DNA of 64,000 nt from Dioscorea cayenensis subsp. rotundata (Eukaryota > Streptophyta > Magnoliopsida > Dioscoreales > Dioscoreaceae), in contig NC_052495.1 in assembly GCF_009730915.1 (NCBI RefSeq), positions 124,001-188,000 on the forward strand, read 5' to 3'. Numbering within the stretch: position 1 is the stretch's first letter; each line of letters begins with the position of its first letter. The notes beneath the pieces were generated by a model that was given only the letters and a program-made list of their open reading frames with translations, was not told where the DNA came from and did no database searches. The translations under genes were made by a program, and so were the position numbers. Shown here piece after piece: positions 10,994 through 64,000 of the stretch.

Positions 10994-13900
10994 GGCAGCT
11001 ACTCATGAGAAATAATAGTGGAATGCTAGGTACAATGACAGTGACAGATATTTGATATGATAAGAGTTTGGTTTCTTTGCTTCTACTTCAGTGACAAATA
11101 CCAGTTAAATACTGCCCTGGTTTGAAGCAAAAGTAAGTTTGAAATGGCAAGAAGGGGACATTCAACCTAAAAGATATTCAAATCTCAACCATATCAAATT
11201 AGAGTTTATAAAGAGGGAAATGCTATTAAAAAAATAAACAAGTATTTAACATTGTAAAACTAGTGGATATGCATTTCTTAGGCTTCAAAATCACAGGTTC
11301 CTGAATTCAAGAAAAGAAAGAAATGAGAAGGAAACAAGTGGATGACATTTGAGAGCTGCACTGTAACTGAATGAAACTTCAAGGACTCAAATATGTGATA
11401 TCATCAGAAAGTAGGTAAGGAGAAAGATTTTATATTCTCCTGAAACTCTTCAGGCTTTACTTTGAGGAATAACCACCATCAAATCGAAATAATTGCACAG
11501 TGATCTTTTCTATATATATATATATATATTAACTTATCATGAAACTTTATGATATCAAAATTTCAGATTGCTGGTGAAAAAGAATGAAGTTTGTCAGTGG
11601 AAATTGAATAAAACAACAAAATAAGTTTTGAGTACACTGCCACAAACACCAAAAATTTCATACAAGTCATAATGTATGATAGAAGAGTTCTAAGAAACAT
11701 ACCTTAATATAAAATAAAATCCATACTCGTGTAAGCAAATTGCTAACAATATATGCATACGAAACTAGGCATTTGTTCTGCTCTAGCTTGCTATCCACTT
11801 ATTCTTGATGATACCAATGAAATTTGTAGCATGCTTCAAGGATTTCATCTACAATGATATCTTTTTGAGAATCATACAGTCCAAATGGAAGAAAGATTGC
11901 ACCCGCCAGTGTCACTCAGCATTTCACATTGTGAATTATGTATGCACAACTACAAAATATTTTTTTTTTTAAATTCAAAATATTACATTAGTAGATGTTT
12001 GAGCATTTAAGTATGGAATTATCTACGTCTTACTCCAGTCAGCATAATCAAAAACAGTAAATTTTAGGTGAGGGTTTCTTTGACAAAAAATCTATTGTTG
12101 GCCTTGGTCTTTCATCAGCATGAGACAAGACGGTCAAGGTCAGTAAGACACCATTCACGCATATTTACACTATTACTTGATTTGCAAGAACAAATATATA
12201 TATATATATATATATAAACTGCTCCAAAATGCAGCAATATCATTTACTTGTCACTCAAAGTAATTTTCAAGATTCCAAATGTTTCACATCATTACTCATT
12301 AGCAAGCAAGTGATGGAAGAAAAAAAAAATTAAACATTTTTCCTGAAACTCTTGAGGTTTACTTTGAAGAATAACCAGCATCAAGTTGAAATATATTATA
12401 TAAGTTTACTCACCATCAAACTTTATGATGTCAAAATCTAAAACTGAAGGTGATAAATAATGAAATATAACCACAAAAATATTAAGTCTTGGATACACTA
12501 TCACAGACAGCAAATTTATCTTAGCTTAGTACTGAATGACATAATCGTTCTGAAATGCACCACATAATATTGAATGATGTCAAAATCTAAAATTGCCAGT
12601 GATAAATAATGAAATATAACCACAAATAATAAGCCTTACATATGCTATCATCAACACCAAACTTTTCTTAGCTTAATACTGAATGAGAAAAAGTTCTAAA
12701 ATACATACCATAATATCGAATGATGTCAAAATTTAAAATTGCCAGTGGTAAATAATGAAATAAAAACCACAAAATAATAAGCCTTGCATACACTATCGCA
12801 AGCACCAATCTTTTCTTATCTTAGTAATGAATGATATAACAGTTCTAAAATGCACCCCATAATATATTGAATGATGTCAGAATTTAAAATTTCTGGGGAT
12901 AAAAAATGAAATAAAAACCACAAATAATACGTCTTGAATACACTATCACAGACACCAAACTTTTCTTAGCTTAGCACTGAATGATTAAGAGTTCTAAAAT
13001 ACATACCATAATATTGAATGATGCCAAAATTTAAAATTTCTGGTGATAAATAATGAAATAAAAACCACTATTTATAAGTCTCGCATATATTATCACAGAC
13101 ACAAAGCTTTTCTGAGCTTAATACTGAATGATATAAGAGTTCTAAAATACATACCATGACATTGAATCAGAAGAGCACCCATGTAAGACAATTACCAACA
13201 GTTGATCTAGGCATTCCTTCACTGATTTGCTTCCTCATTCTAGATTGCCGCAAGTCCTGCATTTGCTTTCGGTTCACTAATTTATAATGGCTTGATATCT
13301 GCTTGTAGGTCCTGATTATGCAGATGAGGTTTGAGGTGACATAATGATATTTGAAGGTTACAATAATATCCTTTAGAGAATCCTAATGGAAGGTAGACAA
13401 TACACAACAGTAACCGAGAGTGGAGAAGCTTATCAACTCCTTGATCTTCATTTCTAATTCAGTCTATACATGAAAGAATCCTAATGCCATACAAATTAAC
13501 CTGAGAAATCAGTGTGTATGTGTAGTGAAATGCAGCTACCGAAGGCACACATTAAGCAAGGGAAAAACACTTCCTCAAAGACTACTCATGTTAATTTTAA
13601 TAACATCAAAAGAAAAGAAAAGAAAAAAGGAACTGTCTTTCCCACTTCAATTAGCTAAAAAATTCACATCAATCACTCAAGTTTCAGGAAAAAAAAAAAA
13701 ATCAGCAGGCCTTTAGGTTTCCACATCCATCAAATCCTCAATAAACACTAAAATCAACCAATCAAGATGATACACAAGACTCATACACCCAGATAATCAA
13801 CAAAAGCTCAAAGCTCAATGAATTTTCAAGCAAATAACTGAAATGGGGTCTGCAACATAGATTTAAGACCAAAGACAGAGGAATCACCAAACAATCTATG

Positions 13901-19520: not shown

Positions 19521-20474
19521 TTAATAGTCAGTCAATCTACAAACAATAGATCTACAAATATATATATTTAACATAATCTGAGTCGTCTTTAGAATTTATG
19601 ATATTTAGTTTAATTAATATTGATTAAAAATAAAAAGAAAAAAGAAAAGAAAAGGGGAGGAAAGAAGGGTCAATTGTCCATGTACTTGTTTGAGAATGGC
19701 AAGAAGAGTATATTGCTCTTGCTTGTAATCCAACATTATGAATGTGAAGGAGCATGACATAAAAAAAAATAAAAATAAAAAAAATAAAAAAAATCCTTAA
19801 ATTGAAGTGAGAAATGCTTGGGGATGAAGAGTTGTTAGGTGAAACAAAATGTCAACATGTATGATTTTTTTAAAGTAAACGAACTTAAAAGAGTTAGACC
19901 GGCCAATGCAACCAATTTCGGCACAAATTTCTTCAATTCCGTCTTCTTGATTAAAAACCGAAAATAAATGTACTAGATATTGATGTATCCCTTCTTCAAT
20001 ATGGTCCCAACAACATCAAGCAATTTTTTTTAAATAATACACTCTATTTATATCTCAATCATACATTGAAAAATAATCGGAGCTCGACCTCAACCTCGAT
20101 CAACCTCCCGCAAAGGCGTCAAACACTCAACCCTGAACCATTTGCAGCATTGGCAACAACAACAACAAGCATACTGTTGTGCTTTAAGCAAACCATATGC
20201 TCTATTCTTAATTTGTTGTGCTTTAAACTACAGTAACTAGTGTACTTTTCTATTTGCATGTTCTTCAAGTGAGTGACGTTTGTTGCCTATTTGTCAATAA
20301 TAATAATAACAACAAGCATACTGTTCACCGATGATAAAAATCTGTTTTACTTTAGTGCATGTGAAGGCAAAAGTTCATACAAGAGAGATTTGCAAAGTCC
20401 ACAAACATTAAGTTTGAAATCAACAAAATCATCACAACTTTTATGTAATGATGAGAAAAGTGTGCAAAGGTATC
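19521..20474. repeat. Copy of the SDA1 downstream flank (segment D, upstream copy)
   Basis: Matches 47802-48885 with indels. Shared landmarks in the same order are TTAATAGTCAGTCAAT, ACATAATCTGAGTC, GTACTTGTTTGAGAATGGCA, GAAGGAGCATGACAT, GAGTTAGACCG, ACTGTTCACC and finally GATGAGAAAAGTGTGCAAAG. In the parent locus this segment lies downstream of SDA1. Here it lies immediately upstream of the SDA1 pseudogene, with the join at about 20475-20478. Confidence 0.88.
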
Positions 20475-21661
20475 CTCACCCTTGCTCATTCCACTGATCC
20501 TGTGGTCGCGAAAGACCTTGGTGATTTTGCCATGTTCCTTGCCCACGTCTACCCCTTGTACCCTTCCCACCTCGCTGATTTCCTTGTGAGCTTATTGATT
20601 TGCTTCGTTCTGATACTGGTTCGCTGCCTTTGTCTCTTCGGTGTCTTGTGCAGGCTCTCATTCTTCTCGTCAATAGAAAGGTATGTTTCTTGGGTGAATA
20701 GAAAATATGAGCTTTCTTTTGAATTACCTTTGTTTGTTTTGGTAGAACGGAGATTTTTTTAATAGTTTTTATTTTTTATTCAAGGTTTTCGTATTGTGTT
20801 TATTTGTTGTGGGATTTAGCAATTGGTGTTTTATAGTTGGAAATTTGCTTTGATGTGTGTAGATTAAGTGGAATAGTTGTGAATTAGGATTGAGATGGTT
20901 AATTTTGTTTTGGGAGTTTTAGACTTTAAGATTTGAAATAAATCAGAAGTTTGTTGCTTGCTATGAAAAATTTGGTTGGTAATTATTTTTATGAGTTCTA
21001 TCTAAATTTTTGAAGAGCCTTTGTTATTTGTCTGTTAATTGTGGCTTTAATTCTTCTTTTAGTTGTACCTGAGTGTTGTATTTACTGACTTGTAAAATTG
21101 TTGAAAGAATGTGGAAACTATTGAATTAAATTATGTGGCCACCATTTGCATCCTTTAGTAGTTGTTGGTTTTTCCCCCATACAAGAGTTTTTTAGATCCG
21201 TAAAAAGTAGAGAATGTGTTGTTCCTTAATTAATGCCATTGTGTTCTATATTTTAAAAATGTATATATGTTTCAGCATTTCATGAAAATGAGGGTAGGCA
21301 AAATTTTAGAGTTCTTAAGTATTATAAATGTCTTGCGTTTCATTTCACCTTGATAAGTAATCAAACTTTCTACACTTGTTTATAACCCTATTGACTCACT
21401 TTTTGATTCTTATGAACATTTGTTTGTTGATGATTATGATAATTGCTGAACTGAGTAAGATGAAATGAGGATATTGTCTTGGGCCTATAGATTTCAATTT
21501 GGTGTTATGTGAAAAAATAGGTGTGCCATGCCGTTAAGAGAGATAAATAAAAATGTTTTTTAATTAATTATGTGCTAAATATCATGGAGCTCTTGCTTGG
21601 AGTGACACCTTGTTTCTTGTTTTGATATTTGTTCCAAAAAATTTTCATGTGTGCTCAATTG

Positions 21662-22008
21662 TGTTAATACAGGGACCCCTAACTTCTTCATAACTCGAGT
21701 TACAAGGAAGGTTTGGTAGGGATATATAAGGCTAGGGAGATTGGCTCTCACAGACGATGTGGAACTATGGACCTGAGCCACTATGTCCCTAACACTCCCT
21801 AAGCCCACAGCGGATATGAGACCCAAGATCCTAGTCACGGCCGATCATAACCATACAGCTCTGATACCATGTTAATACAGGGACCCACCACCCTAACTTC
21901 TGCATAACTTGAGTTATAGAGAAGGTTTGGCAGGGACATATAAGGCTAGGGAGATTGGCTCTCACAAGCGATGTGGGACTATGGACCTGAGCCACTACAT
22001 CCCTAACA
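21662..22008 (-). mobile_element. TRIM retroelement (miniature LTR element), copy 1
   Basis: A 347-bp element in reverse orientation within the pseudogene's first intron. Two terminal repeats (21662-21794 and 21870-22008) each begin TGTTA and end AACA when read on either strand. Read on the minus strand, the first repeat is followed at once by TGGTATCAGAGC (complement of 21858-21869), the primer-binding site for initiator Met tRNA. A purine-rich tract (GGGCTTAGGGAG) precedes the second. The target duplication AATTG is present at 21657-21661 and 22009-22013; the parent SDA1 intron has a single AATTG (near 40006). No coding capacity, so it moved with help from another element. Confidence 0.93.
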
Positions 22009-22238
22009 AATTGATTGTTATTCTCAAGTTTATTAATTCATATTACAATTGGCAGGTTAACATTGAATCAAACTTGTTAATTTTGGATATCATTTTGTTA
22101 TATATTTTTAAAAAACTCTAATACGCTTTTTAACTGTTTGCCTCCAATTTTGTCTGTTTTTATATTCATGCAGTTAGTTGGTATTGAAGAAACTCTTGAA
22201 CTGTTATGGACCTTCAAATTCTTGGTGATCGAACTATG

Positions 22239-22750
22239 CGGAAATTGGCTTTTGCCCATGTTGTTCATAGCATCCGAAGAATGAAGCAGAAACATAAAAA
22301 TGAAGCCAACAATCGGAAACTGCAAAACATCTTATTTTTTATGCTACAGGTCTCCAGTGTTATGAGTATTTCATTATAGTCCCTTTTGTATTAGATTTTA
22401 AGATTTAGGAGCAGTGCATCTTCTTTGTGTCTCTAATTTTGCTTATTCCTGATTTGGGGCCCTTTTGTATTAGATTTTAAGATTTAGGAGCAGTGCATCT
22501 TCTTTGTGTCTCTAATTTTGCTTATTCCTGATTTGGGGGCGGAAATTGGCTTTTGTCCATGTTGTTCATAGCATCCGAAGAATGAAGCAGAAACATAAAA
22601 CTGAAGCCAACAATCGGAAACTGCAAAACATCTTATTTTTGATGCTACTGTGTCTCCAAAGTGTTATGAGTATTTCATTATAGTCCCGTTTGTATTAGAT
22701 TTTAAGATTTAGGAGCAGTGCATCTTCTTTGTGTCTCTAATTTTGCTTAT
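22239..22750 (+). repeat. Local duplication of pseudogene exon 2 and following intron
   Basis: The block with the second half of exon 2 (GCGGAAATTGGCTTTTG, 22239-22349) recurs at 22539-22650. The intron sequence beginning near CCCTTTTGTATTAGATTTTA appears three times (from about 22381, 22460 and 22686). The parent gene has each only once (40228-40450). This is a post-duplication tandem event that further breaks the pseudogene. Confidence 0.88.
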
Positions 22751-25700
22751 TCCCCGTGGGGGGTTTATTGGCATATATTTATCAACTCACCGTGCCACCC
22801 ATTGATAGTTTGATTAATCTCTGAAAGTTTTTTATTTTTTAGAAGGAGGATGAAGCAAGGGCTAAAAGGGCTCTTGTTGTTCTTTCTGATCTTCACCGAT
22901 GCAGGGTGTGGTTTGATGATCGGACATCCAATGCCATTTGCACTGCATGTTTTCACTCATCGTCTAGGTTTTTATTGTGTCTAGTTTTGCATGTCAATTA
23001 ACTGTGGTTTTGTACTCATTCAAGTTTCTGTAATCAGGATTTTGATATCTGCTCTTTCATTCTTATGAACAAGTTGAAGAAGAAGAGGATGACAGTGATA
23101 ATTCCAGAAGTGAGGATGACACAACTAATCAAAATGCCCAGATTATTCTTAGTAGAGAAGCTGTTTACAAGGTCTTAAAATTCTATTCCTCTTATTTTTT
23201 TTTAATAAACAATTGCATCACCGGACATTTCATGTATATTTTTCGTTGAATTCCTGTGTCTCTGCATTATAGCCCAATGTGTGGAAAAGTTTCATAAGTC
23301 TGATCTTCTTTCTTGTGAAAATTCCATTTGCTAAAATTGCTTAAGGGCATTCTTGTGTGAAGATGGCAGGTGTTTGTTCTTACTAAAATGACCATCTATC
23401 ATTTAGCTTGCATCCAAGATATATTAACTAGAGGAGTAGTGCTAATTTTGCTTTGATCAGAAGATGTGAAATTTCTTCAAAGGCTTATTTTGACTGAATA
23501 GGAACTATAATATTTTAATCCATTTTGGCAACTAATAGCTTGGGATCAAGTTTTTTTGGGCAGTAAGAAAATCATGGTTCATGCTTGATAAATGGATGAG
23601 GCTTGCTCATCTGGAATCCAAAATCATTGTACTTAAAGGACCTTGAAAATGGATTATTTGTTGGATATGTTAGCATGTAAAATACATTTTTCAGGAAGAT
23701 CAAAGGTACAACGATGCTGGAAATGTAAAAAGATGTAAAAATTCTGAGGGAAAAATGTGATTGTAAATGTGGAAATGTTTTATTTTTGTTTTGGCCTTCA
23801 ATGGGAATTGTAGGCAAGGATAATCCATGACAGTCATGTCTTGTGAGTTTGGATAAAAAAAGGAATCACGCGTATGTTACCAGGTTCAAATAGGTTAAAT
23901 ATGGTTAACAGTACCAACATGTATATAGTATTTTTATTTCTGGATCATATATTGAATAAATTATCCTTTAATATATTTTAATGCAGATGTATATGCTTAG
24001 AATTCTTGCATGCGTGATTGCTCTCTTATTCAAGGTTTTTTGAAGATTGTGGCATTATGTTTTTGTAGACATCTTGGCAGTTATCACTTGGTAACTGCCT
24101 ATGGAATTTTGCCTTGACAACAAGAGGTTAAACCATGAAGTTCTTTCTCTGGAATTTCTGTTGAAGATGGTGTGCGAATTAAAAAAAAATTAATTACTGC
24201 ATTTTTTAGGGTGCCCTTTTTTTTTTCTTCCAAGACATGAGTTTTTCTATTGTACCCCTTATCTACTTTATGACTGAAATTCAAGCACATCGCAAAGGCA
24301 CTACTTCCAGCAAGAAAAAGAAGAAGGCGAAGTTGCAGCGTGTTGCTCGTAACATGAAAAAGTAGCAACGCATTTCATCAGAGAATAACAATTCAAATTA
24401 GTATTCACCACTTGCTCATCTATAGGATGCACAAGTTAGTGGATTATTATATTTGAATTCTTAGCTTTGATTCAGCTTGCTGATTGGCCATATAAATGTT
24501 AATTTTCTTCTAGGGTTTTGTAGAGAAATTGTTCTCTCGTCTTCAGAAATGCAATGAACGGTTTGAGGTATTAGTCTTGATTTTATAAAATGATTTTTAA
24601 ATTGAAGATTAGTAAATGATGTGGCACTATACTCACTAATCAAATTGTTGACTACGTTGAAAATCACATCAAAAGTTTGTTTTGCTCTAGGAAGATATGG
24701 TTTATAAAAGCTCACTATTTTACTGCTTAATGAAATTCAAACTTAAGTATGAATGCCTTTTTTTTCTTCTTGTTTTGATACCTCCCTAAAAATTATTCTA
24801 CTGCAATTTCACACATGACTTTGAGATATTCAATAAGACTCCTTCGCTTAGTATTCTTTTTGAAGGTCTCTTAATCCTTTTTCAATTTGTTATTTATTTT
24901 TTTATGTATCACAAAGTTTAAGTTAATGGGGTTTGTGTAGTGTATAATGTTTGTTTGTGTATAGTGTGCGCATGAATGTCCTCCACTTAGTACCCTGAGT
25001 ATCGTAACAATCCTACGCTGAAAAATATTTTATATTATTTTCCTTCTCTGAAAGAGGAAGTTTTCATTTTTGTTAGAATCTGTGAATGTTGCTTATGTTC
25101 AAATATCAGTATTTCATTATGTGGTTTCATTTCGATATGGTGTAAAAGCAATAATGATTATCTATTGTATAGAACCCCAAAGAATTTGTGAGGCACAATA
25201 TACTTCAAGTCAATCCATAATTTTGGCATAAATAATTTTATGGAAGCATGTCAATTAGGAATTTATTTCATCAGTTATGAATCATGAAAGCCTGTTGATA
25301 TGGAAGCCTTTTACTATCTATAGTGACAGGACTTGCTAAAATCTTTTTGGCCAATAATACTCTTCACATTATGCTTTTGCAATACTGATATGTAATTTTA
25401 TGGAATTACCTATTGTTTTTTGCCTAATGCTTGATAAAAGAATATATGCATTTTGGTGTTTATGATTATATGTTAACATGTCTATCAGTGTTTGATTCAT
25501 TTACTTCAAAATTTTTATCAGGCCCTCGCTTTTTTTAAATATTCTTTCGAACAATTGAACTGTTGCATCAAGTTGTAGGATGTTTCTCCAATCAGTTGGT
25601 TAGCTCTCCTATTTGGACACATATGCTTCTATCAAAAGTCGGACTCATTTTTAGTTGTAATTTTTTTCATGTTTGATACAAATAGTCATTCTGCTTTCGA

Positions 25701-26150
25701 AGAAAATTTGTTTACATTTTAGGTTAAGATGATGATGTTTGAAAGTAATCGCTAGAACTGTGGGGATGCATCGATTAATCCTACTAAATTTCTACCCATT
25801 TCTTCAAAAATACATTAAGGTAGGGTAGGCTACCAATGGCCTTCTCAATTCTGGTTTATAAAGCTTCAGCTCATGATATTATTTATATTTTTCCGTGCTC
25901 ATCAACGTGATGTCACAACTCGCTTGCTGCAGCGAGTGCAGAGCTTTGCCATGATATGGTTTTCTTCAATCATCTTCTAATTTGGAATCTTTTTCATAAT
26001 AATGTACATATATTTGTAGTATTAATTTTTTTTTATGATTAGGTGCCTCCTGATGCGGTTGAACCATTGTTCAGACAAAAAGTAGATCAATTTGTTCATA
26101 ATCGTTCTCGTACAGAGGTCTTGCACAAAATCCACTAGCCCTGTTATGGT

Positions 26151-26502
26151 TGTTCGGGACGTAGTGGCTCCGGACCATAGTCACACATCGCCTGTAGGAG
26201 CCAATCTCTCTAGTCTTATATATCCTTACCCAACCTTCCCTATAACTCGAGTTATGGAGAAGTTAGGATGGTGGGTCCTTATATTAATATGGTATCAGAG
26301 CTATATGGTTGTGATTGGCCAGTTCTAGGATCTTAGGTCCCTCATCCGCTATGGGCGCGGGGGTGTTCGGGACGTAGTGGCTCAGGACCATAGTCCCACA
26401 TTGCCTGTGGGAGACAATCCCTTTGGTCTTATATACTCTTACCAAACCTTCCCTATAACTTGAGTTATGGAGAAGTTAGGGTGGTGGGTTCCTGTATTAA
26501 CA
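26151..26502 (+). mobile_element. TRIM retroelement, copy 2 (same family)
   Basis: A 352-bp element: 139-bp LTRs at 26151-26289 and 26364-26502, starting TGTTCGGGACG and ending ATTAACA (5' copy ATTAATA). The primer-binding site TGGTATCAGAGC (26290-26301) follows directly after the first LTR. A G-rich tract (GGGCGCGGGGG) precedes the second. Target duplication ATGGT at 26146-26150 and 26503-26507; the parent intron has one ATGGT at the equivalent place (near 43826). The two LTRs differ at roughly fifteen positions by eye, so the insertion is not very recent, or the element evolves fast. Internal region ~74 bp, non-coding. Confidence 0.94.
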
Positions 26503-26744
26503 ATGGTTGCTACCATTTGATTGTCAGTGGTTTTGAAATTTTATATGACATTAGTGCGCAAGTGATATTGTTTTTTTTCCTCTTTTCTCATGCAATTGCT
26601 GTTGGACTGAATGTTGTAAGGGAGATCTGCCTGCGAATGCCTTTGGTGTGTCTTCATTTTATATTCTAGCTTTATAGTTTGAATATCGCTATTGTGCACA
26701 TTGATTCGCATAACATGCATAATTTGTATCATGAGTACTTTATA

Positions 26745-27051
26745 GGTATAATACCCGAATTGGTCCCTCTACTTTTCTCTCTCTCTTCTCTTTTGGTCCC
26801 TCTACTCAGAAATGCGCCCCACTAATCCCTCTATTTTTGAAAATAACCCAATTTAGTCCATCTACCCTTAATTGTTTCTCATCTAGTCCCTCTACTCTTA
26901 AAAATACACCCAATAATTAACCTATTTTAGAGTAGAAGGGACTAAGTAGAACCATTTTCAAGAGTAGAGGGACTATTTGAGAGTATTTCAGAATAGAGAG
27001 ACCAAAAGGAAAGAGAGAGAAAAGTAGAGGGATCAATTCGAGTATTATACC
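26745..27051. mobile_element. Mutator-like MITE with 9-bp target duplication
   Basis: A 307-bp inverted-repeat element. Ends read GGTATAATACCCGAATTGGT and, at the right, AATTCGAGTATTATACC. The arms extend deep inward (GGTCCCTCTACTTTTCTC against GAGAAAAGTAGAGGGATC). The 9-bp sequence TACTTTATA occurs at 26736-26744 and 27052-27060, but once in the parent SDA1 intron (near 44056). A 9-bp duplication with long terminal repeats is typical of non-autonomous Mutator-superfamily elements. It inserted after the SDA1 duplication. Confidence 0.92.
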
Positions 27052-27589
27052 TACTTTATAACAATTTTAGGTTGTTACCTCATCTTTAATTGTCTTGAAG
27101 TGTATTACCTTGTTTTGGTTTTCTCTCTTTAGTAATCAAGTGTGAAATAGGGCATCGTGAAGGATGTGGTCAATGAAAAATTTGTCTGCAGGCAGAAAAA
27201 ATGTGTAAACATCAATGACATCATTTATTCTACGAACCTTCTGTTTCATATGATTTTTACTTTTCTGTCCTTTCAGTTAATGAATGAAGACCTTCTTCAA
27301 GATCTTGTCCAGTACAAGAAGTCGCATGAAAAAGCAATTTCAACCGCTTCTCGCTCCTTGATCATGCTATTCAGAGAGGCTTTATTGGCACATTTATAGT
27401 TCATTTATTACATGGAGATATTATGATCTTTATATGAAGAAAATGCTTTTTAATTGAATGCAGATCTGTCCTTCTCTATTGGTTAAAAAAGACAGGGGCC
27501 GGCCTACTAACCCAAAAGCAAAGCCAAAAGCATTTGGAGAAGTCAACACCAACAACTCCAATTCATCAACCCCTATTGGTTCTACTAGA

Positions 27590-29213
27590 TCGGCTCCATC
27601 ACTTCACGTGCTCCTCACTGCTCGATCACATCATCTTCAGCTGATTCAAATCATAATGAACAAGTGCAAAACCAAAATAATAGTGCCAGATTAGAGAACG
27701 TTCCCGTAATTACTGAAGCAGAAAATTTAAATGCAGGTTCGTTTCATATCTTCAATCTTAATCATAATTTATTATATTTGCCTTAATGTTCTTATTTTCT
27801 ACTAATATGTAGTTGATAGAAATGGGCAACAAAAAAAAAGAGGTCGAACTACTTTGAAAGACTTGTGGTCATTACCACCAGAAGAGAGGATTGTGGTGAG
27901 TGCAAATCATTTGGGACAACCAATTGGGCCCGAAGCACAACTACAGGCTGGATTTCTCGGCATGCTTGCTCGAATTGGTCAACAAATTGGCATCCATTAT
28001 CAGAGTTGGCATAAAGTGCCAAAAACATTAAAGGATGAATTGTTCAAATTTATTGAGGTAAACCCACATAATTGAATTGTTCAAATGTTATTTCTATAAA
28101 TATACAAACATCAAGGTACATTAATAAACAAAATTGTTTATAATGTCTTCAACTAATTACGATTTGCTCTTGAGATTTCAAAAGAGTATGTGCTCAAGTC
28201 TCTGGGGAAGAAATGGAGAGATTACAAGCATGATTTAAAAAAGCGTCATTTCAAACGAGAATATGGTTTGCAAGTGAACAAAGATAAACATCCAAATGCA
28301 ACCATTAGATGGCAATGGGAACAATTAGTCAATTATTGGTATTCAAATAAAGGAGAGGTATGAATATGTATTTTACTTATTTTACTAAAATTATCATATC
28401 TTTCTTATTTCTAAGTTACTATACATGTCATTATGTAGGATTCAAAAAGACTTGGGGTTGCTAGCAGAAAACAACAAAAATATACTCATACCTCTGGATC
28501 AAAAAGCTTTTCTAGAAAGGAAAAGGAAATGGTAAGCAAATATATATTACGAATGAAATTGTTAGTGTGAGTTAAAAATGTTGTGTTTTTTTTTACTTTC
28601 GTTTGCATTTTAATGATGTCTTCAAGTTTATCTCTTGATGTTTGTGATTCAAACAATTTTTTTGTTTAAACACTTGTAGGAGGTTCACATTGGAAGAAAA
28701 GTAGGGCGTCTCAAATTTTCTAAAGCAACTCATACCAAAAAGGATGGTTCTCACATGAATGTGGAAACTAAACAAATTATGGTCATAATTATGTCTTAAG
28801 TATTCCTTATTTCGTAATTTGGTGCGAAATATATGACTACCTTAAAATATTTTTTTCATTATATACAGGTTAAAGCAAATGAGAAGTTAGCTGAATGTGA
28901 AATAGTAGATGAGGATATGCAAATTGTTGAAACTGAAATTCTAACACAAGTTATTGGAAAAGAACGATGTGGGCAAGTAAGAGTGCTTGGATTGGGTCCA
29001 ACACTCAAAACTTATTATGGGGGTACGACTAGCAGAACTTCTACTACCTCAAGCGCCCAATCAAGTGAGTTTGTTGAGCGGTTTAATCAAATGGAACAAC
29101 AAATGCAACAATTGAAAGAGGAGCGAGAGCAAGAACGTGCACAACGTGAGGAAGAACGTGCACAAGAATGTGCTCGATATAATGCTCTTCTTGGGTTTTT
29201 ACAAACTCGATAA
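27590..29213 (+). CDS. Plant transposase-associated protein (Ptta/En/Spm, Transposase_24 type), partial
   Basis: Exons supported by GT-AG borders and protein continuity: ~27590-27736, ~27812-28057, ~28160-28357, ~28440-28532, ~28681-28790 and ~28870-29213. Recognisable stretches are GRTTLKDLWSLPPEERIVV, LGMLARIGQQIGIHYQSW, EYVLKSLGKKWRDYKHDLKK, WEQLVNYWYS and EVHIGRKVGRLKF. The C-terminus is a coiled coil (EQQMQQLKEEREQERAQREE) ending NALLGFLQTR before the TAA. These are hallmarks of the second ORF carried by plant CACTA elements, separate from the catalytic TNPD-type transposase. No start codon can be placed; the 5' part is lost at the junction with SDA1. The frame is open in each exon, so decay is limited. 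It is not in frame with the SDA1 exon it abuts. Confidence 0.75.
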
Positions 29214-29639
29214 CCTGGAGTTATTATCCCTGAGTTGACACAGCTGGCTCAACTTCTCAGTCACAGGTATATCGAAAGTGGCAATGTTACTATGTTTGTA
29301 TCTATTTGTTATAATTTTAAAAACATTATGGAATCTTTTCTTATTAATTTTTTTTTAATTGCAGAATCAGCCTTCTGGAGATGAGTAGTGGCATTCATCA
29401 AGCTATGGAGGATTTTTATTTATCTTTGTTTTCTTTTGTATTATTTGGAGGAACACAAGAATCACAAACCCAATTATGTGCTAATTAATATCGAAGACTT
29501 TTGTAACTTCTAATTGGTTTGAAATTATTAAATATCAACTATTGTGTTTTGGTGCATAGATAACTATGTGACTATTCTTATCTTGAATGTTAATTGCATT
29601 GTCTTTGTAGTACCATTGTTTTTTGTAAAAAAGCGCATA

Positions 29640-30301
29640 AATAAAAGTGCAGAATCGAGGAACTATATTCAAAATAAATTTAGCGGCGTTTCAACTCAAA
29701 ACGACGGGAAACACATCATTTTACTAGTGTTTATTCAGGAAAACGCCGTTATATAGTGGCATTTTATTACATAAACTCCGGTAAAAATAATTAACATTAT
29801 TTAGAAGATGGAAACGTTACTGGCATTTATCCTTAAAATGCCGGTAATATAGTGCCATTTCTTAAATAACGCCTCCGAATAGCGGCGATTATATAAATAA
29901 ACACCACTAACTTAGTGCCGTTTAACATTAAAAACGGCAGTAACTTAGTGGCATTTATTTATATAAACGCCGCTAATTTACATTTTTTAAAATTTACAAA
30001 CCACACTTTCGCACGGTGTTCATTCTAATGATCGCCACTATAATAGCGGCGTTTATTTTCAAAACGTCATTATTTTGATGCTCATTTATGTATACTTTGC
30101 TTCCAATTTTGCCGGTATTTTATAAATAAACGCCGCTAACATGACGGTGTTTATTTTGTAGAATGCCGCTAAAATACCGACGTTCTCTTTAGCGGCACTA
30201 CTCGCGGCGTTTATTATAAACACCGGCCATTAATTTAGGGCATTTATAAATGCCGTGAAAAGCCGATAACAATGCCACTGAAAGCCCCATATGGTGTAGT
30301 G
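29640..30301. repeat. CACTA subterminal repeats
   Basis: Many short direct and inverted copies of motifs such as AGCGGCGTTTAT, AACGCCGCTAA and TAGTGCCGTTT, about every 30-60 bp up to the terminus. Such arrays near CACTA ends are the binding sites of the element's TNPA-type protein. Confidence 0.85.
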
Positions 30302-36670: not shown

Positions 36671-37716
36671 AGGTTTTTTTTTTCTTTTCAAAATAATATT
36701 TATTTTTTTAATTAATTATCGAAATACGCATTTCCGTAACTATTTACAGAAATGCGCATGTTTATTTTTTTAATAATTTTTTTTAAAAGTTATGGATCTC
36801 ACTCACTTTTTAATATTAAATTTTTAATTTTTTTAAATCCCGGGTCCCATTTTTTTTTAATATTAAACTTTTGTTTTTTAAAAACCACAATCCCCATTAA
36901 TATTTAAATTAAAAAAATTTACATTCAAACCCTTATATTTTCATAATATTTTCTTATAACTTGTTTTATCCCAGTTTTACTCTCTTATTTGTACTCTAAC
37001 TAATTTTAGTTTAACTATTAATAATTTAAATAATTTAATATTAAACATCTAAATATTTTAGCAGTCAAAATTTTAACATGTAAAAAATTAATCCTATAAA
37101 TAAATAAATCAGAATATATATTATCAAAAGATTCAATAGTAGAATATTTAAGTTATATTACGACATATGACTTGGACCAGTGGCATTCGGATAATTTAAA
37201 CGAGTGTGTCTTTCATTGCGATATAAATCACAACGTTGTGGCTAATCGCTTTTTCTTATATCCATCTCATCAAGACATAGACATAGATCATTATAGGGTT
37301 CTAATACCTCTCATTTGACATTGATTGAAACTCTTTATGGTATGCATTAAAAATTATTTCAAACATATAAATAGTAGAATATTAATATTAAACTAAAATT
37401 AGTTAAAGTAGAAATAAGAGAGTAGAAATGGAAATAAAACAAATTATAAAAAAATATTAAATATAAGGGTTTGAATGTAATTTTTTTTTTAATTTAAAAT
37501 ATTAATGGGTCCTCGGTTTTAAAAAACAAACGTTTAATATTAAAAAACAATGGGACCCGTGATTTTGAAAAATAAAAATAAAAACTTAATATTAAAAAGT
37601 AAGTGGGACTTATAACTTTTAAAAAAATATTAAAAAAATTAAATATACGTATTTCCATAAATACATATTTTGATAATTAATTAAAAAATAAATAATATTT
37701 TGAAAAAAAAAAACAC
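36671..37716. mobile_element. Long inverted-repeat (foldback) element
   Basis: Two arms of about 340-360 bp (36671-37030 and 37375-37716) are inverted copies. Left-arm landmarks CAAAATAATATTTATTTTTT, ATACGCATTTCCGTAA, CGGGTCCCATT, AACCCTTATATTT and TAACTAATTTTAGTTT recur inverted at the right (GTATTTCCATAA, AATGGGACCCGTG, ATATAAGGGTTTG, AACTAAAATTAGTTA). A ~340-bp non-repeated centre separates them. Long arms suggest a Mutator-like or Foldback non-autonomous element; no clear target duplication was found. No coding capacity. Confidence 0.8.
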
Positions 37717-37911: not shown

Positions 37912-38213
37912 TCAGTCGGCCAATCTCACCCTAGCTGATCCCTTCTTTGGACCCGTCTCCTTCTTTTTTCTGTTCCTCTCTTTCTTCTCTTGTGCTCGTC
38001 GCCTCGGACCGGCCGGCCGCCTCCGTCGCCGCCGCCGACGAGCTCTTGCTTTGGGCTTCCACCGACTTCCCGTTCGCGTTTCGCCTCTGTTCTCGCTGAG
38101 CTCCGACCGCAGTGAGCTGCGGTCGTGAATCTTATCCGAACTTGAGCGCTTAGTTGTCGAGTTGGATAAGGACGGTCGGATCCCTTCAACTTCCTGTTGA
38201 ATATCTCTCTGAG
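37912..38213 (+). promoter_or_regulatory. GC-rich island, possible 5' leader exon near SDA1
   Basis: Sharply GC-rich against its surroundings (CGGCCGGCCGCC, CCGCCGCCGACGAGC). It ends CTCTGAG|GTATGATTTGG, a good donor, and an acceptor-like TTGACAG lies at 38394-38400, ahead of SDA1's ATG at 38515. It could be a non-coding first exon of SDA1 or the leader of another transcript. The intervening piece contains upstream ATGs, which argues against a simple SDA1 leader. The minus-strand Arg-rich open frames here are by-products of base composition. Confidence 0.35.
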
Positions 38214-38501
38214 GTATGATTTGGCGTTCGTTGATTTGATTTCTATTCAATTGCGATTGGTATTGTGTTAGGGTTTTGGTTTTGCTGGTTTTGATTTATT
38301 TTGTGAATTTGGTGTTCGATCGTCTGGTTTGAGCTGATTTGGCTGTAATTGGGGTTCTTTTTTAATGTGAAATCTTTGGTTGTGAGGCCCGTATTGACAG
38401 GTCTAAACATAATGTAGGGGCATATTTACAAAAAATAATGAATAAATTTACATGATAAAACTTAAACAGGACGCGGGTTTCTCTTCTTCCTTGTGAATCT
38501 A

Positions 38502-38510
38502 AAACCCTAA
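38502..38510 (+). promoter_or_regulatory. Telo-box of SDA1
   Basis: AAACCCTAA, 5 bp upstream of the ATG. Telo-boxes near the transcription start are common in plant genes for ribosome biogenesis and translation, which fits the role of SDA1. The pseudogene copy lacks this region. Confidence 0.65.
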
Positions 38511-38514
38511 CACA

Positions 38515-41500
38515 ATGCCGGCGCCACCGTCGTCGGTGCAGCTTCTCACGCCCGAGACGCTGCTGGCTTCCGGCAAGGGTTCCGAGCGACTGAGCCTGCC
38601 GGCGCTGCAATCAAAGATGAAGTGCGACCCCGAAGGCTATGAATCCGAGCTTGTCCTTCTCCATCGCCACTTCGGCTCCTCTCTCCAGCTTTTCCGACAG
38701 CAATCGGCCCTTGCTCCTTCCACTGATCCCGCGGTCGTGAAAGACCTTGGTGATTTTGCTATGTTCCTTGCCCACGTCTCCCCCTTGTACCCTTCCCACC
38801 TCGCTGATTTCCCTGGTGAGCTTATTGATTTGCTTCGTTCTGATGCTGGTTCGCTGCCTTCGTCTCTTCGGTGTCATCTTGTGCAGGCTCTCATTCTTCT
38901 CGTCAATAGAAAGGTATGTTTCTTGGGTGAATAGAAAATATGAGCTTTCTTTCGAATTACCTTTGTTTTGGTAGAACGGAGTTTTTTTTAATAATTTTTA
39001 TTTTTTATTCAAGGTTTTTGTATTGTGTTTATTTGTTGTGGGATTTAGTAATTGGTGTTTTAAAGTTGGAAATTTGCTTTGATGTGTGTAGATTAAGTGG
39101 AATAGTTGTGAATTAGGATTGAGATGGTTAATTTTGTCTTGGGAGTTTTAGACTTTAACATTTGAAATAAATCATTAGTTTGTTGCTTGCTATGAAAAAT
39201 TTGGTTGGTAATTATTTTTATGAGTTCAATCTGAATTTTTGAAGAGTCTTTGTTATTTGTCTGTAAATTGTGGCTTTAATTCTTCTTTTAGTTGTACCCG
39301 AGTGTTGTATTTACTGACTTGTAAAATTGTTGAAGGAATGTGGAAACTATTGAAGTAAATTATGTGGCCACCATTTTCATCCTTTAGTAGTTGTTGGTTT
39401 TTTCCCCATGAGTGAGTGATAATAGTATCATCCAATGGTTATAATTCGGCTAATCATTCATTCGTAGCTATTAAGTAATATGGAAAGTTAATGATAGAAT
39501 GGGAATAAGGATTTGCACTTTGAGAAAATACAAGAGTTTTTGAGATCCGTAAAAGGTAGAGAATGTGTTGTTCCTGAATTAATGCCATTGTGTTCTATAT
39601 TTTAAGAATGTATATATGTTTCAGCATTTCATGAAAATGAGGGTAGGCAAAATTTTAGAGTTCTTAAGTAGGTTAAATGTTCTGCATTTCATTTCACCTT
39701 GATAAGTAATCAAACTTTCTACACTTGTTTATAACCTCATTGACTCACTTTCTGATTCTTATGAACATTTATTTGTTGATGATTATGATAATTGCTGAAC
39801 TGAGTAAGATGAAATGAGAATATTGTCTTGGCCCTATAGATTTCAATTTGGTGTTATGTGAAAAAATAGGCGTGCCATGCCGTTAAGATAAATAAAAATG
39901 TTTTTTCATTAATTATGTGCTAAATATCATGGAGCTCTTGCTTGGAGTGACACCTTGTTTCTTGTTTTGATATTTGTTCCAAAAATTTTTCATGTGTGCT
40001 CAATTGATTGTTGCTCTCAAGTTTATTAATTCATATTACAATTGGCAGGTTAACATTGAATCAAACTTATTAATTTTGGATATCATTTTGTTATATATTT
40101 CTGAAAAACTCTCATACGCTTTAACTGTTTGCCTCCAATTTTGTCTGTTTTTCTATTCACGCAGTTAGTTGGTATTGAAGAAACTCTTGAACTGTTTATG
40201 GACCTTCAAATTCTTGGTGATCGAACTATGCGGAAACTGGCTTTTGCCCATGTTGTTCATAGCATCCGAAGAATGAACCAGAAACATAAAAATGAAGCCA
40301 ACAATCGGAAACTGCAAAACATCTTATTTTTTATGCTACAGGTCTCCAGTGTTATGAGTATTTCATTACAGTCCCTTTTGTATCAGATTTTAAGATTCAG
40401 GAGCAGTGTATCTTCTTTGTGTCTCTAATTTTGCTTATTCCTAATTTTGGAGAGGCTTTATTCGCATATATTTATCAACTCACCGTGCCACCCATTGATA
40501 GCTTGATTAATCTCTAAAAGTTTTTGATTTTTTAGGAGGAGGATGAAGCAAGGGCTAAAAGGGCTCTTGTTGTTCTTTCTGATCTTCACCGACGCAGGGT
40601 GTGGTTTGATGATCGGACAGCTAATGCCATTTGCACCGCATGTTTTCACTCATCATCTAGGTATTTATTGTCTGTCCAGTTTTGCATGTCAATTAACTAT
40701 GGTTTTGTACTCATTCAAGTTTCTGTAATCAGGATTTTGATATCTGCTCTTTCATTCTTGCTTGGTTATGAACAAGTTGAAGAAGAAGAGGATGACAGTG
40801 ATAATTCCAGTAGTGAAGATGACACAACTAATCAAACTGCCCAGATTATTCTCAGTAGAGAAGCTGTTTACAAGGTCTTAAAATTCTATTCCTCTTACTA
40901 TTTAATAAACAATTGCATCACCGGACATTTCATGTATATTTTTCATTGAATTCCTGTGTCTCTGCATTATAGCCCCGTGTGTGGAAAAGTTTCATAAGTC
41001 TGATCTTCTTCCTTGTGAAAATTCCATTTGCTAAAATTGCTTAAGGGCATTCTTGTGTGAAGATGGCAGGTGTCTGTTCTTACTAAAATGACCATCTATC
41101 ATTTAGCTTGCATCCAAGATATATTAACTAGAGGAGTAGTGGTAATTTTGCTTTGATCAGAAGATGTGAAATTTCTTCACAGGCTTATTTTGATTGAATA
41201 GGAACTATAATATTTTAATCCATTCTGGCAACTAATAGCTTGGGATCAAGTTTTTTTGGGCGGTAAGAAAACCATGGTTCATGCTTGATAAATGGGTGAG
41301 GCTTGCTCATCTGGAATTCGAAATCATTGTACTTAAAGGACCTTGAAAATGGATTATTTGTTGGATATGTTAGCATGTAAAATATATTTTCAGGAAAAAA
41401 AATGAAAGGTATAACGATGCTGGAAATGTAAAAAGATGTAAAAATTTTGAGGAAAAAATGTGATTGTAAATGTGGAAATGTTTTATTTTGGCTTTGGCCT

Positions 41501-44500
41501 TCAATGGGAATTGTAGGCAAGGATAAACCATGACAATAATGTGTTGCGAGTTTGGATAAAAAAGGAATCACACGTATAGTGCCAGGTTCAAATAGGTTAA
41601 TAGTACCAACATGTATATAGTTTTTTATTTCTGGATCATATATTGAACAAATTATCCTTTAATATATTATAATGCAAATGTATATGCTTAGAATTCTTGT
41701 ATGCGTGATTGCTCTCTTATTCAAGGTTTTTTGAAGATTGTGGCATTATGTTTTTGTAGACATCTTGACAGTTAGCACTTGGTAACTGCCTATAGATTTT
41801 TGCCTTGACAACATGAGGTTAAACCATGAAGTTCTTTCTCTGGAATTTCTGTTGAAGATGGTGTGCGAATTAAAAAATTCATTACTGCATTTTTGAGGGT
41901 GCATTTTTTTTTTCTTCCAAGACATGAGTTTTTCTATTGTACCCCTTATCTATTTTCTGACTGAAATGCAGGCACATCGCAAAGGCACTACTTCCAGCAA
42001 GAAAAAGAAGAAGGCGAAGTTGCAGCGTGTTGCTCGCAGCATGAAAAAGCAGCAACGCATTTCATCAGAGAATAACAATTCAAATTGGTATTCTCCACTT
42101 GCTCATCTACAGGATGCACAGGTTAGTGGATTATTATATTTGAATTCTTAGCTTTGATTCAGCTTGCTGATTGGCCATATAAATGTTAATTTTCTTCTAG
42201 GGTTTTGTAGAGAAATTGTTCTCTCGTCTTCAGAAATGCAATGAACGGTTTGAGGTATTACTCTTGATTTTATAAAATGATTTTGAAATTGAAGGTTAGT
42301 AAATGATGTGGAACTGTACCTGCACTAATCAAATTGTTGACTATGTTGAAAATCACTTTGGAAGTTTGTTTTGCTCTAGGAAGATATGGTTTGTAAAAGC
42401 TCACTATTTTACTGCTCAATGCAATTCAAACTTAAGTATGAATGTCTTTTTTTTCTTCTTGTTTTTATACCTCCCTAAAAATTATTCTACTGCAATTTCA
42501 CATGACTTTGAGATATTCAATAAGACTCCTTCACTTAGTATTCCTTTTGAAGGTTTCTTAATCCTTTTACAATTTGTTATTTATTTTTTTTCTTGTATCA
42601 CAAAGTTTAAGTTAATGGGGTTTGTGTAGTGTATAATGTTTGTTTGTGTATAGTGTGTGCATGAATGTCCTTCACTTGGTGTCCTTAGTATCGTAACAGT
42701 CCTACGCTGCAAAATATTTTATATTCTTTTCCTTCTCTGAAAGAGGAAGTTTTCATTTTTGTTAGAATTTGTGAATGTTGCTTATGTTCAAGGATCAGTA
42801 TTTCATTATGTGGTTTCATTTCGATATGGTGTAAAAGCAATAATGATTATCTGATGTATAGAACCCCAAAGAATTTGTGAGGCACAATATACTTCAAGTC
42901 AATCCATAATTTTGGCATAAATAATTTTATGGAAGCATGTCAATTAGAAATTTATTTCATCAGTTATGAATCATGAAAGCCTGTTGATATAGAAGCCTTT
43001 TACTATCTATAGTGACAGGACTTGCTAAAATCTTTTTGGCCAATAATACTCTTCACATTATGCTTTTGCAATACTGATATGTAATTTTATGGAATTACCT
43101 ATTGTTTTTTGCCTAATGCTTAATAAAAGAAGATATGCATTTTGGTGTTTATGATTATATGTTAACATGTCTATCAGTGTTTGATTCATTTACTTCAAAA
43201 TTTTTATCAGGCCTGCTTTTTAAATATTCTTTCGAACAATTGAACTGTTGCATCAAGTTGTAGGATGTTTCTCCAATCAGTTGGTTAGCTCTCCTATTTG
43301 GACACATATGCTTCTATCAAAGCTGGACTCATTTTAGTTGCAATTTTTTCATGTTTGATACAAATAGTCATTCTGTTTCTGAAGAAAATTTGTTTACATT
43401 TTAGGTTAAGATGATGATGTTTGAAAGTAATCGCTAGAACTGTGGGGATGCATCGATTAATCCTACTAAATTTCTACCCATTTCTTCAAAAATACATTAA
43501 GGTAGGGTAGGCTACCAATGGCCTTCTCAATTCTGGTTTATAAAGCTTCAGTTCATGATATTATTTATATTTTCCAGGCTCATCAACGTGATGTCACAAC
43601 TCTGCTTGCTGCAGCAGTGCAGGCTTGCCATGATATGGTTTTCTTCAATCTTCTTCTAATTTGGAATCTTTTTCATAATAACGTACATATATTTGTAGTA
43701 TTAAATTTTTTTTATGATTAGGTGCCTCCTGATGCGGTTGAACCATTGTTCAGACAAATAGTAGATCAATTTGTTCATGATCGTTCTCGTTCAGAGGTCT
43801 TGCATGAAATCCACTAGCCCTATTATGGTTACTACCATTTGATTGCCAGTAGTTCTGAAATTTTATGACAGTAGTGCGCAAGTGATTTTGTTTTTTTTTT
43901 CCTCTTTATCAGGCAATTGCTGTTGGACTGAATGTTGTAAGGGAGATCTGCCTGCGAATGCCTTTGGTGTGTCTTCATTTTATACTCTAGCTTCATAGTT
44001 TGAATATCGCTATTGTGCACATTGATTCACATAACATGCATAATTTGTATCATGAGTACTTTATAATAATTTTAGGTTGTTACCTCATCTTTAATTGTCT
44101 TGAAGTGCAGTATCTTGTTTTGGTTTTCTTTCTTTAGTAATCAAGTGTGAAATAGGGCATCGTGAAGGATGTGGTCAATGAAAAATTTGTCTACAGACAG
44201 AAAAAATGTGTAAACATCAATGACATCATTTATTCTATGAACCTTCTGTTTCATATGATTTTTACTTTTCTGCCCTTTCAGTTAATGAATGAAGACCTTC
44301 TTCAAGATCTTGTCCTGTACAAGAAGTCGCATGAAAAAGCAATTTCAACCGCTGCTCGCTCCTTGATCATGCTATTCAGAGAGGTTTTATTGGCACATTT
44401 ATAGTTCATTTATTACATGGAGATATTATGATCTTTATATGAAGAAAATGCTTTTTAATTGAATGCAGATCTGTCCTTCTCTATTGGTTAAAAAAGACAG

Positions 44501-47310: not shown

Positions 47311-49529
47311 GACAACTACAACAATGTTGTTTTCACCAAGTTTTGAAGAGGCTAATTTTGTTTTTCCTAAAATGTTTTTTTGCGTTGTTGTTTGAACCCA
47401 CATGGCTGTAATCCATATGTAATTTTTACTGTTGTTATTATTAGTGAATAGCATTATATTATGAAAGAATTACTACTCAATACGTGGATTGTTACAAACT
47501 AATGAAAGACAATGTTTTGATATGTCAAGATGAATTAGGTATACAAGCATGGAAATCTTAGAAGCATCCATAGTTTGTGGCTGATTTATTGTTAGACTGA
47601 TGGGGCAAATTTCCATTAATATTTTCAATTTGCTTTAGTTTCATTTTGCTGGTTGCCTTTGTGGTGTTCATGTGGGATTCTTTTGTCATGAGCCGAGTGA
47701 AATGCTACAGCTCGCTATATATAAAATCTTTTAGTTTACTCAAAACCTTTTATTTAAACACATACTTTTTTTTTTTTGAAAGAGGGAAGTTTTTCATAGA
47801 TTTAATAGTCAGTCAATTGACAAACAATAGATCTTTAAATTTATATTTTGACATAATCTGAGTCTTTTGTGCATTTTACTCAAGATTATTCGCCACCGAT
47901 ATTTTTATAGCTAGAAACTTTAATTATTTAAATAACAGTGTTAAACAATTAATTAAACAATTTAAAATTTATGATATTTGGTTTAATTAATATTGATTAA
48001 ATACTTTTAAAAAAAAAAGAAAAGGGAAAGAAAGAAGAGTCAATTGCCCATGTACTTGTTTGAGAATGGCAAGAAGAGTATTTTGCTCTTGTAATTCAAC
48101 ATTGTGAATGTGAAGGAGCATGACATGAAAAAAAAAACGGAAACCATAAATTGAAGTGAGAAATGCTTGGGGATGAAGAGTTGTTAGGTGAAACAAAATA
48201 TCAACATAAATGATTGCTTAAAGTAAAGGAACTTAAAAGAGTTAGACCGACCAATGCAACCAATTTCGGCACAAATTTCTTCAATTCATTCTTCTTGATT
48301 AAAAACCGAAAATAGTTGTACTAATATTGATGTATCCCTTCTATCAATGGTCCCAACAACATCAAGCATTTTTTTTAATAATACACACTCTATTTATATC
48401 TCAATCATGTATTGAAAAACAGTCGAATTTCGAAACATCAAATATTTTTTAAAATAATACATATTTTATTTATATCTCAATCATGCATAAAAAAATAGTC
48501 TACATCCTGCAAAAAAAATCAAACAGAACCACTTGCAACAATGACATCAACAAACGTATTGTATACTATATATTTTATTGTATTTTAAACCATAGTAATT
48601 ATATTGTTGTGCTTTAAGCAAATTGTATATTTTATTGTACTTTAAGCCACAGTGATTTGTGTACTTTTTTTTAAGTTGTATGTCCTTGAAGTTGGTGGAC
48701 TATTTATTTGTCAATAATAATAACAAGCATACTGTTCACCAGTGATGAAGATCTGTTTTACTTTAGAGCATGTGAAGACAAAAAAGTTCATACAAGAGAT
48801 CTACAAAGTCCACAAACATGAAGTCTGAAATCAACAAAATCATCACAACTTTTATGTAATGATGAGAAAAGTGTGCAAAGGTATCTGCTCTAATAACAAA
48901 AAATATCACGTTATCTATCAATTTGAGTTCACAAGGTAAAAGCTGAAGAACTACAACCAGGATGTAAAAACACTAAATAAGTAGCAAGAGAACTTTATTG
49001 ATATCTAATGGGAATACATGGACTAAAAAAAAATTTAAAAGATGTATCTAGCCAAGAGCCAAGAGCCAAGAGCCAAGTGCAAACCCCATGTCCTCTTATT
49101 CTGTTCGCCAACCATCGCTGAATGATTAATTAACAGAAAAAAAAAAGGTAAAAAAAGAAGAGAAAGTTAAACTCCTAATCCTTGCATCATCAACAAAAAC
49201 TAACTTATATATTTTGCAGAGAAACTTGAGAGAAACCAAAACACCAAATTAGAAGAAGGAATAACATAAATCTTAATCATCAATACTTCGCAAGCAAAGT
49301 GTGGGATTTCAGCAAAGATTGTGTGAAAAATATAAAGCACTAGTTTAATCTAGAACAAAATCTGAGTATGGATGATATATTTTTAACTAAAGCTTTCCAA
49401 ACAAGAGCCGTTAATCGATAAACCAATCACAGAAAAGTGTTGCCTCAGGTTTTGTAGGGGCCAAGAAAAGCACAAGCATAAACAAAGAAACAAGCATGAA
49501 CCAAAGATGAGTAAAGGACAACACCTTTA
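47311..49529. other. Region between SDA1 and PDI genes
   Basis: SDA1 3' UTR, then segment D (listed separately), then ~640 bp of AT-rich sequence leading to the 3' end of the minus-strand PDI gene. A triple AAGAGCC(A) run occurs near 49053-49077. No gene seen. Confidence 0.55.
47802..48885. repeat. Segment D, parental copy downstream of SDA1
   Basis: Counterpart of 19521-20474. It has a ~100-bp stretch (about 47866-47962) missing in the other copy, and its poly-A tracts differ in length. The match stops abruptly at GTGCAAAGGTATC (48885), which is the rearrangement breakpoint. Confidence 0.87.
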
Positions 49530-63180: not shown

Positions 63181-64000
63181 CTGATCAGCAAAAATCAGAA
63201 TTAAATACTAGTATGATAGGAGACAGTGATATCCAAGGAAAGAAATTGGCTCTGTTAAGCAGTGTCAGTCTGAAATAAAAAAGAAAGAAAGAAAAGAAGC
63301 TGGGTATTTAGAAAATTCTCACACAGGATGAACAATGTAGCAAATCATTCTTGCTGGAATAATTAACTCCATTCATGATTTGTTAATAATTGTGAATTAA
63401 AATCACATGGAAATATAAAGGAAGCACATTTGAAAAATACAGCACACAAAGCCCAAAGTAAATGAGACATCACAGCATTAACTCTAATTTCCTGTCTCGT
63501 CGAGCATAAAAGTGACTGGTTCTGCGCCAAACAGGGCAAAACTAAACGACATAAGACCATAACATTGACAAAATCCACATGAGAAGATAAGTGTTCTACA
63601 TGAGAACAAAGAACAGCTACTAAGAATACCAAGACCAACTAAACGACATAAGATCATAACATCGACAAAATCCACATGAGAAGAGAAGTGTTCTACATGA
63701 GAACAAAGAACAATTACTAAGAAAGTAAGAATACCAAGACCAACTAAACGACATAAGACCATAACATCGACAAAATCCACATCCAGCCAGCAATAAGCAG
63801 ATGAAAAGAGCTATAGGATCAGTGTTCGCTAAACAACATTGGACCCATAACATTGACAAAAGCTGCATGCAGTCAGTTTAAGTAACAAGAAGATGAAAAG
63901 AAATAAGGGATATCACTGTTCACTAAACGACATTGGGCCATAACATCGACAAAATCCGCAAAAAGCCAGATCAAGTAATAAGCAGATGAAAAGAACTAAG
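63181..64000. other. 5' intron of the TOL gene (rest outside window)
   Basis: Begins right after the acceptor of the 63102-63180 exon on the minus strand and has no exon-like conservation. Its outer half is the minisatellite listed separately. Serine/Cys-rich minus-strand frames at 63363-63868 are translations of that repeat. Confidence 0.65.
63538..64000. repeat. ~100-bp minisatellite in the TOL intron
   Basis: At least two near-identical ~100-bp units start near 63540 and 63638, both with AACTAAACGACATAAGA, CATAACATCGACAAAATCC, AAGTGTTCTACATGAGAAC and AGAATACCAAGACC. A third partial unit starts near 63743. After that, the shorter motif CTAAACGACATTGG...CATAACATCGACAAAATCC with AAGCAGATGAAAAGA recurs in a ~105-bp period to the window edge. 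Some units are nearly identical, so the array probably varies in length. Confidence 0.88.

Follow-up and report, generated by a model that had tools for sequence, protein, structure and literature searches.

A duplicated gene segment whose parts stand in the reverse order from its parent is described here in a stretch of Dioscorea cayenensis subsp. rotundata DNA (NCBI RefSeq assembly GCF_009730915.1, contig NC_052495.1, positions 124,001 to 188,000), which was analysed over its full 64,000 nucleotides and is referred to as the window. The window harbours an intact SDA1 gene followed by a segment termed D. About 18 kb away and in the same orientation lies a truncated copy of the gene, SDA1', which is preceded by a copy of the segment, D'. 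Such a swapped order is expected of a duplicate that has passed through extrachromosomal circular DNA (eccDNA), and the initial annotation of the locus interpreted it in this way. The evidence presented below points tentatively to a different origin, in which D' and SDA1' arose by local duplication in several steps and were then trimmed by deletions. This reading is favoured over a single circle and is given a probability of about 45%.

Arrangement of the two copies

When the window was compared with itself by BLAST, D' (19521-20474) was found to precede SDA1' (20479-27548), whereas in the parent locus D follows SDA1, beginning 491 bp past the stop codon of the gene. All blocks shared by D' and D and by SDA1' and SDA1 are collinear and on the plus strand, the order being swapped without inversion. 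D' and D align over 19520-19584/47801-47864 (E 6e-16), 19588-20087/47961-48433 (6e-162) and 20171-20474/48601-48885 (1e-74). Parent positions 47865-47960 are missing from D', and for 48434-48600 BLAST found no D' alignment except a repeat of the adjacent 67 bp. SDA1' matches its parent over six blocks extending from 20479 (= 38708) to 27548 (= 44553), with identities of 93.4-97.6% and E = 0 for five of the six (2e-99 for the sixth). The swapped order and the start of SDA1' in the middle of exon 1 had both been noted in the initial annotation and are confirmed by this comparison; that annotation also placed the end of SDA1' in exon 12, and here the coordinates hold but the exon is the eleventh. 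Three short matches of flanking sequence, of 74, 45 and 37 bp, are read as chance similarities in AT-rich DNA.

SDA1' can be argued to be a genuine paralogue as opposed to a collapsed haplotype, because its divergence from the parent is near-even at 4% and it carries private insertions. With its decayed exons, these features led haplotype duplication and assembly collapse to be set aside.

The junction between the two parts of the duplicate reads ...CAAAGGTATC (end of D, 48885), CTCA, CCCTTGC... (exon 1, 38708). The predicted 48885/38708 join is therefore present, with the addition of a filler of four nucleotides that matches neither flank. Inspection of 20470-20480 for microhomology had been suggested; none is visible at the join when the junction is printed beside both parental flanks. 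The two ends of the donor segment are thus united within the derivative in the same orientation and in swapped order, at a breakpoint without homology.

Unequal divergence of the two parts

Had D' and SDA1' arrived in a single insertion, D and the SDA1 introns would be expected to show equal divergence. D and D' differ at 69 of 812 columns (8.5%), the introns of SDA1' and SDA1 at 180 of 4486 (4.0%; Fisher p 3e-7, and p 0.003 for transversions alone). The transition/transversion ratio is the same in both, 1.76 and 1.77 respectively; therefore deamination alone does not account for the excess in D, which appears scaled in time or rate, and a methylation-driven excess was rejected on this ground.

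The excess withstands changes of procedure. The ratio of D to SDA1 divergence ranges from 1.84 to 2.51 over six scoring schemes, a persistence that speaks against an alignment artefact, and from 1.96 to 2.91 over five filters directed at gap edges and low-complexity sequence, with p <0.002 in four of the five; under the strictest filter, where 5 of 49 D columns differ, p is 0.07. A block bootstrap against introns only gives a ratio of 2.1 (95% interval 1.47-2.89), and divergence stays at or below 5.4% in every intron stretch of the same length as D. Intervals of 100 columns with at least seven differences make up five of eight in D versus three of 44 in the introns under the main scheme, and eight of eight in D versus nine of 57 in SDA1 when the sequences are aligned with MAFFT. 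The 16 intron intervals that are as AT-rich as D or more show a mean of 4.2%, the exon limits being rough in this comparison. Approximate limits also underlie the comparisons over scoring schemes and filters, those made with MAFFT and the test for evenness within SDA1; the main counts and the intron bootstrap were obtained with corrected ones. As MAFFT yields 12.2% for D versus 4.4%, the size of the excess is alignment-dependent and the lower figures of the main scheme, 8.5% versus 4.0%, were adopted.

Within SDA1, divergence is near-even (dispersion 1.35, p 0.04), and the longest run between differences is 172 versus 144 expected (95th percentile 198). No recent conversion patch is therefore evident, and recent patchy gene conversion was rejected for want of an excess of identical runs. 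As judged from these alignments, D' is probably, though not certainly, an older copy than SDA1'.

Decay and right end of the truncated copy

The parent gene encodes a protein with Pfam matches to SDA1_HEAT (E 6e-106), SDA1_dom (3e-9) and SDA1_C (5e-7). In SDA1', deletions of 4, 1, 8 and 1 bases are present in exons 1, 2, 4 and 7 respectively, exon 7 has three single-base insertions, and three substitutions in exon 5 create stop codons in the parental frame. The acceptors of exons 5, 7 and 9 are lost and the exon 10 donor is GC. The 33 exon substitutions are distributed 11/10/12 over codon positions 1/2/3. Exons differ at 33 of 1216 columns (2.7%) against 4.0% in introns, as expected if constraint acts on the parent alone. 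By these marks in its sequence SDA1' is a pseudogene in neutral decay.

The pseudogene has received three insertions: two elements resembling terminal-repeat retrotransposons in miniature (TRIM), which belong to one family, and one resembling a miniature inverted-repeat transposable element (MITE). These labels, like the CACTA label used below, are the authors' readings from sequence. The halves of the MITE-like element differ at 43 of 149 columns. The long terminal repeat (LTR) pairs of the TRIM-like elements differ at 12 of 133 (9%) and 17 of 140 columns (12%), which exceeds the 4% intron divergence of SDA1' from SDA1, and these differences show an excess of transitions, 23 to 6, as is expected of methylated elements. 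Around exon 2 of SDA1', at 22238-22753, local tandem duplications of 215 bp (96% identity) and 79 bp (100%) are found that are not seen in the parent.

At its right end, SDA1' exon 11 adjoins transposase-like sequence directly at 27548/27549. This sequence resembles the En/Spm transposase up to 29213; one of three pieces scanned against Pfam matches Transposase_24 with an E of 0.026, which falls short of the curated cut-off. A CACTA-like right terminus, CACTACACCATATGGGGC, lies on the minus strand at 30284-30301. The 18-base terminus has a single match in the 64 kb when up to three mismatches are permitted, and no left terminus was found in the window at this setting, with which a more diverged or more distant left end would be missed. 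The right end of SDA1' is most likely a secondary deletion scar inside the CACTA-like element, because simple insertion of a transposon would have placed its terminus at this point. The fusion of SDA1' to transposase-like sequence, with the right terminus alone found in the window, is an indirect sign of such a deletion, and a scar at this point would mean that deletions have shaped the block. The left-truncated element also carries repeated subterminal motifs.

A proposed multi-step origin

In the favoured account, D' would be an older copy of D, and the duplication of SDA1, next to D' and with orientation unchanged, would have come later. Two routes are the likeliest: recombination between D copies flanking the gene, by which D-SDA1-D would become D-SDA1-D-SDA1-D, or tandem duplication of a unit larger than 38708-48885. 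One deletion would then have joined D' to the middle of exon 1, leaving the four-nucleotide filler in the manner of end joining. Another would have joined exon 11 to the interior of the CACTA-like element; lost in the process would be the 3' half of SDA1', a middle D if there was one, and the transposon's left part. The net result of the two deletions would be D-SDA1'-SDA1-D, with the truncated copy upstream. Afterwards SDA1' would have decayed and gained the two TRIM-like elements, the MITE-like element and the small tandem duplications.

Such a history would explain both the apparently greater age of D' and the upstream position of the truncated copy, and the direct orientation and proximity of SDA1' and SDA1 are as predicted for tandem duplication with later deletions. 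A tandem origin had been discounted in the initial annotation on the argument that it would place the truncated copy downstream of the intact gene. The argument is sound for a unit of exactly 38708-48885, because only the first copy keeps its own start, but it does not extend to a larger unit or to recombination between flanking D copies.

Several observations weigh against this multi-step account. It requires at least three events. No middle D or further SDA1 unit was found elsewhere in the window by self-BLAST or, for D, by a search at word size 7 and E 1e-3, in which D and D' returned only three short matches of 28-41 bp; at the same settings, nothing resembling the SDA1 5' flank (38000-38707) occurs elsewhere in the window. 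The middle units that the tandem model requires may have been deleted. The age difference between the two parts is also open to challenge. Of the eight 100-column intervals of D, three (2, 5 and 6) do not depart from what introns ordinarily show, and next to the junction the final 60 columns of the D alignment are free of mismatches, with 4% over the final 100. D is rich in AT, contains low-complexity stretches and may have a higher mutation rate than the introns. Local rates do vary, as the LTR pairs of the TRIM-like elements exceed 4% although these elements were inserted after the SDA1 copies had separated.

Alternative origins

The strongest competitor is the single excised circle, in which 38708-48885 (∼10.2 kb) would have been copied, closed, opened near 47801 and reinserted ∼18 kb upstream, with a later CACTA-linked deletion of 44554-47801. 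It accounts directly for a non-inverted block in swapped order and for a homology-free 48885/38708 join with its 4-nt filler; the 60 identical D columns next to the junction are also in its favour. According to PMC7450558, a circle is recognized by donor ends that are united in its derivative and by outer ends of that derivative that are contiguous in the donor; the order rule for circle-derived copies is also given in PMC7188851. At the SDA1' block the first relation is observed, but the outer ends of the derivative (44553 and 47802) lie 3,248 bp apart in the parent, and nothing resembling the intervening 44554-47801 occurs elsewhere in the window (word size 7, E 1e-3). The scar at the CACTA-like element may rescue the circle from this difficulty, because the 3.2 kb could have been lost there. 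The roughly twofold divergence of D relative to the SDA1 introns is harder to reconcile with one insertion, there is no special reason for reinsertion so near the donor, and among the closure, opening and insertion junctions the closure alone can be read. The order and the join put forward in support of a circle therefore stand, whereas the outer ends and the divergence of D count against it, and on balance this origin is unlikely.

Slightly less probable still is one replicative repair event without a circle, in which template switching (microhomology-mediated break-induced replication, MMBIR, or fork stalling and template switching, FoSTeS) or break repair would have copied D before returning to SDA1 exon 1, giving a patchwork insert. 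Order, filler and the closeness of donor to acceptor would all follow, and no opening point is required. The mismatch between the divergence of D and that of SDA1 again stands in the way, no other switch has been recognized, and filler DNA copied from a single template over ∼6 kb would seem rather long. With one junction, a circle and a template switch could each have produced the join. That the block represents a fixed natural plant duplicate formed through a chromosomal circle or a backward template switch, reinserted near its donor and with a closure readable at base level, is a doubtful proposition, if a shade less so than the circle taken by itself.

It is improbable that D is a dispersed repeat that happens to lie beside both SDA1 copies, or that the block was assembled by CACTA gene capture. 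A CACTA-like remnant does adjoin the block and D' is, at face value, older than SDA1'. Inspected by eye, D nevertheless shows no terminal inverted repeat, and a convincing target-site duplication is also lacking, a single 5-bp match having emerged from the many offsets tried; the window contains no Rfam match at gathering cut-offs and no third D copy in the 64 kb beyond the 28-41 bp matches. Capture, which would enclose the fragments between two CACTA termini, was rejected since no left end was detected in the window with up to three mismatches.

Least credible is an old permuted duplication, made in one event, in which gene conversion from the parent later homogenized the SDA1 part, D alone keeping its true age: D (8.5%) and the TRIM LTR pairs (9% and 12%) do look older than the SDA1 introns (4.0%), but the near-even divergence of SDA1 without an excess of long identical runs would require conversion to span the whole of SDA1' and end at its limits, and the TRIM excess consists mostly of transitions.

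Other features of the window

The coordinates of the duplicate, its parent and the associated elements are collected in Table 1. Upstream of the parent SDA1, the arms of an inverted repeat (36678-37023 and 37380-37713) are 82% identical and ∼360 bp apart, and possibly represent a transposon. Tandem repeats occur at 12425-13167 (about five 147-bp units, 82% matches) and at 63540-64000, where units of 93-97 bp reach the window edge.

Table 1. Features of the SDA1 duplicate and its parent locus (window coordinates)
Feature	Position	Strand	Basis
D', copy of parent D (47802-48885); homology stops at the SDA1' junction	19521..20474	+	BLAST and alignments; 69/812 columns differ
Filler CTCA, 4 nt, at the D'/SDA1' join	20475..20478	+	Junction compared with both parental flanks
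SDA1', truncated pseudogene, mid exon 1 to mid exon 11	20479..27548	+	BLAST, indels, stops, splice sites
TRIM-like element, direct repeats AATTG (by eye)	21662..22009		Parent site empty
Second TRIM-like element, opposite orientation, direct repeats ATGGT (by eye)	26151..26502		Parent site empty
MITE-like insertion, imperfect inverted halves, 9-bp direct repeat TACTTTATA (by eye)	26745..27051		Parent site empty
Right part of CACTA (En/Spm-like) transposon, transposase-like remnants and right terminus	27549..30301	+	Family label is the authors' reading
Parent SDA1, intact, 14 exons, 818 aa	38515..47310	+	Translation; Pfam
Parent segment D	47802..48885	+	BLAST

Comparison with known systems

Truncated tandem or proximal gene duplicates are familiar in plants as pseudogenes in direct orientation, close to their parent, with truncated ends, frameshifts, stop codons and transposon insertions. 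SDA1' resembles them in these respects and differs in that the downstream segment D stands ahead of the truncated gene.

Large local tandem duplications, some with ends inside exons, have been reported in Arabidopsis epigenetic mutants, and their authors state that they are not associated with eccDNA (PMC10462705). These duplications share with SDA1' a plant host, a local position and, in some cases, ends in exons; those named there are 34-56 kb long, recent and in tandem order, whereas SDA1' is a short and old copy whose order is altered.

The circular-DNA-mediated segmental duplications described in human resemble the SDA1' block in their swapped order without inversion, in donor ends joined inside the derivative and in a join without homology and with few filler bases (PMC7450558). 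The human cases presented there have outer ends that are contiguous in the donor, and their copies are non-tandem; in the SDA1' block, 3,248 bp separates these ends in the parent, the copies lie ∼18 kb from each other and the two parts are unequally diverged. The five proposed human closures resolved in that account show an insertion of 0-1 nt or microhomology of 2 nt, as against the 4-nt filler found here (PMC7450558). If the SDA1' block were a true circle product, it would provide a plant example of a route of gene duplication proposed in human, cattle and yeast (PMC7450558, PMC7188851). As read here it mostly calls for caution, swapped order alone being no proof of a circle; the divergence of the two halves, and whether the outer ends meet, offer cheap tests for candidates of this kind.

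A parallel to the favoured account comes from Takahashi and Innan, who show that false positives for the swapped-order signature typically stem from tandem duplication combined with partial deletion and who, from 52 regions with an eccDNA pattern, retain three as strong candidates after inspecting dot plots (PMC7188851). The SDA1' block shares the swapped-order signature with the eccDNA-mediated duplications of that study and differs from them in bearing a probable deletion scar at one end; the false positive described there resembles the arrangement favoured for this locus.

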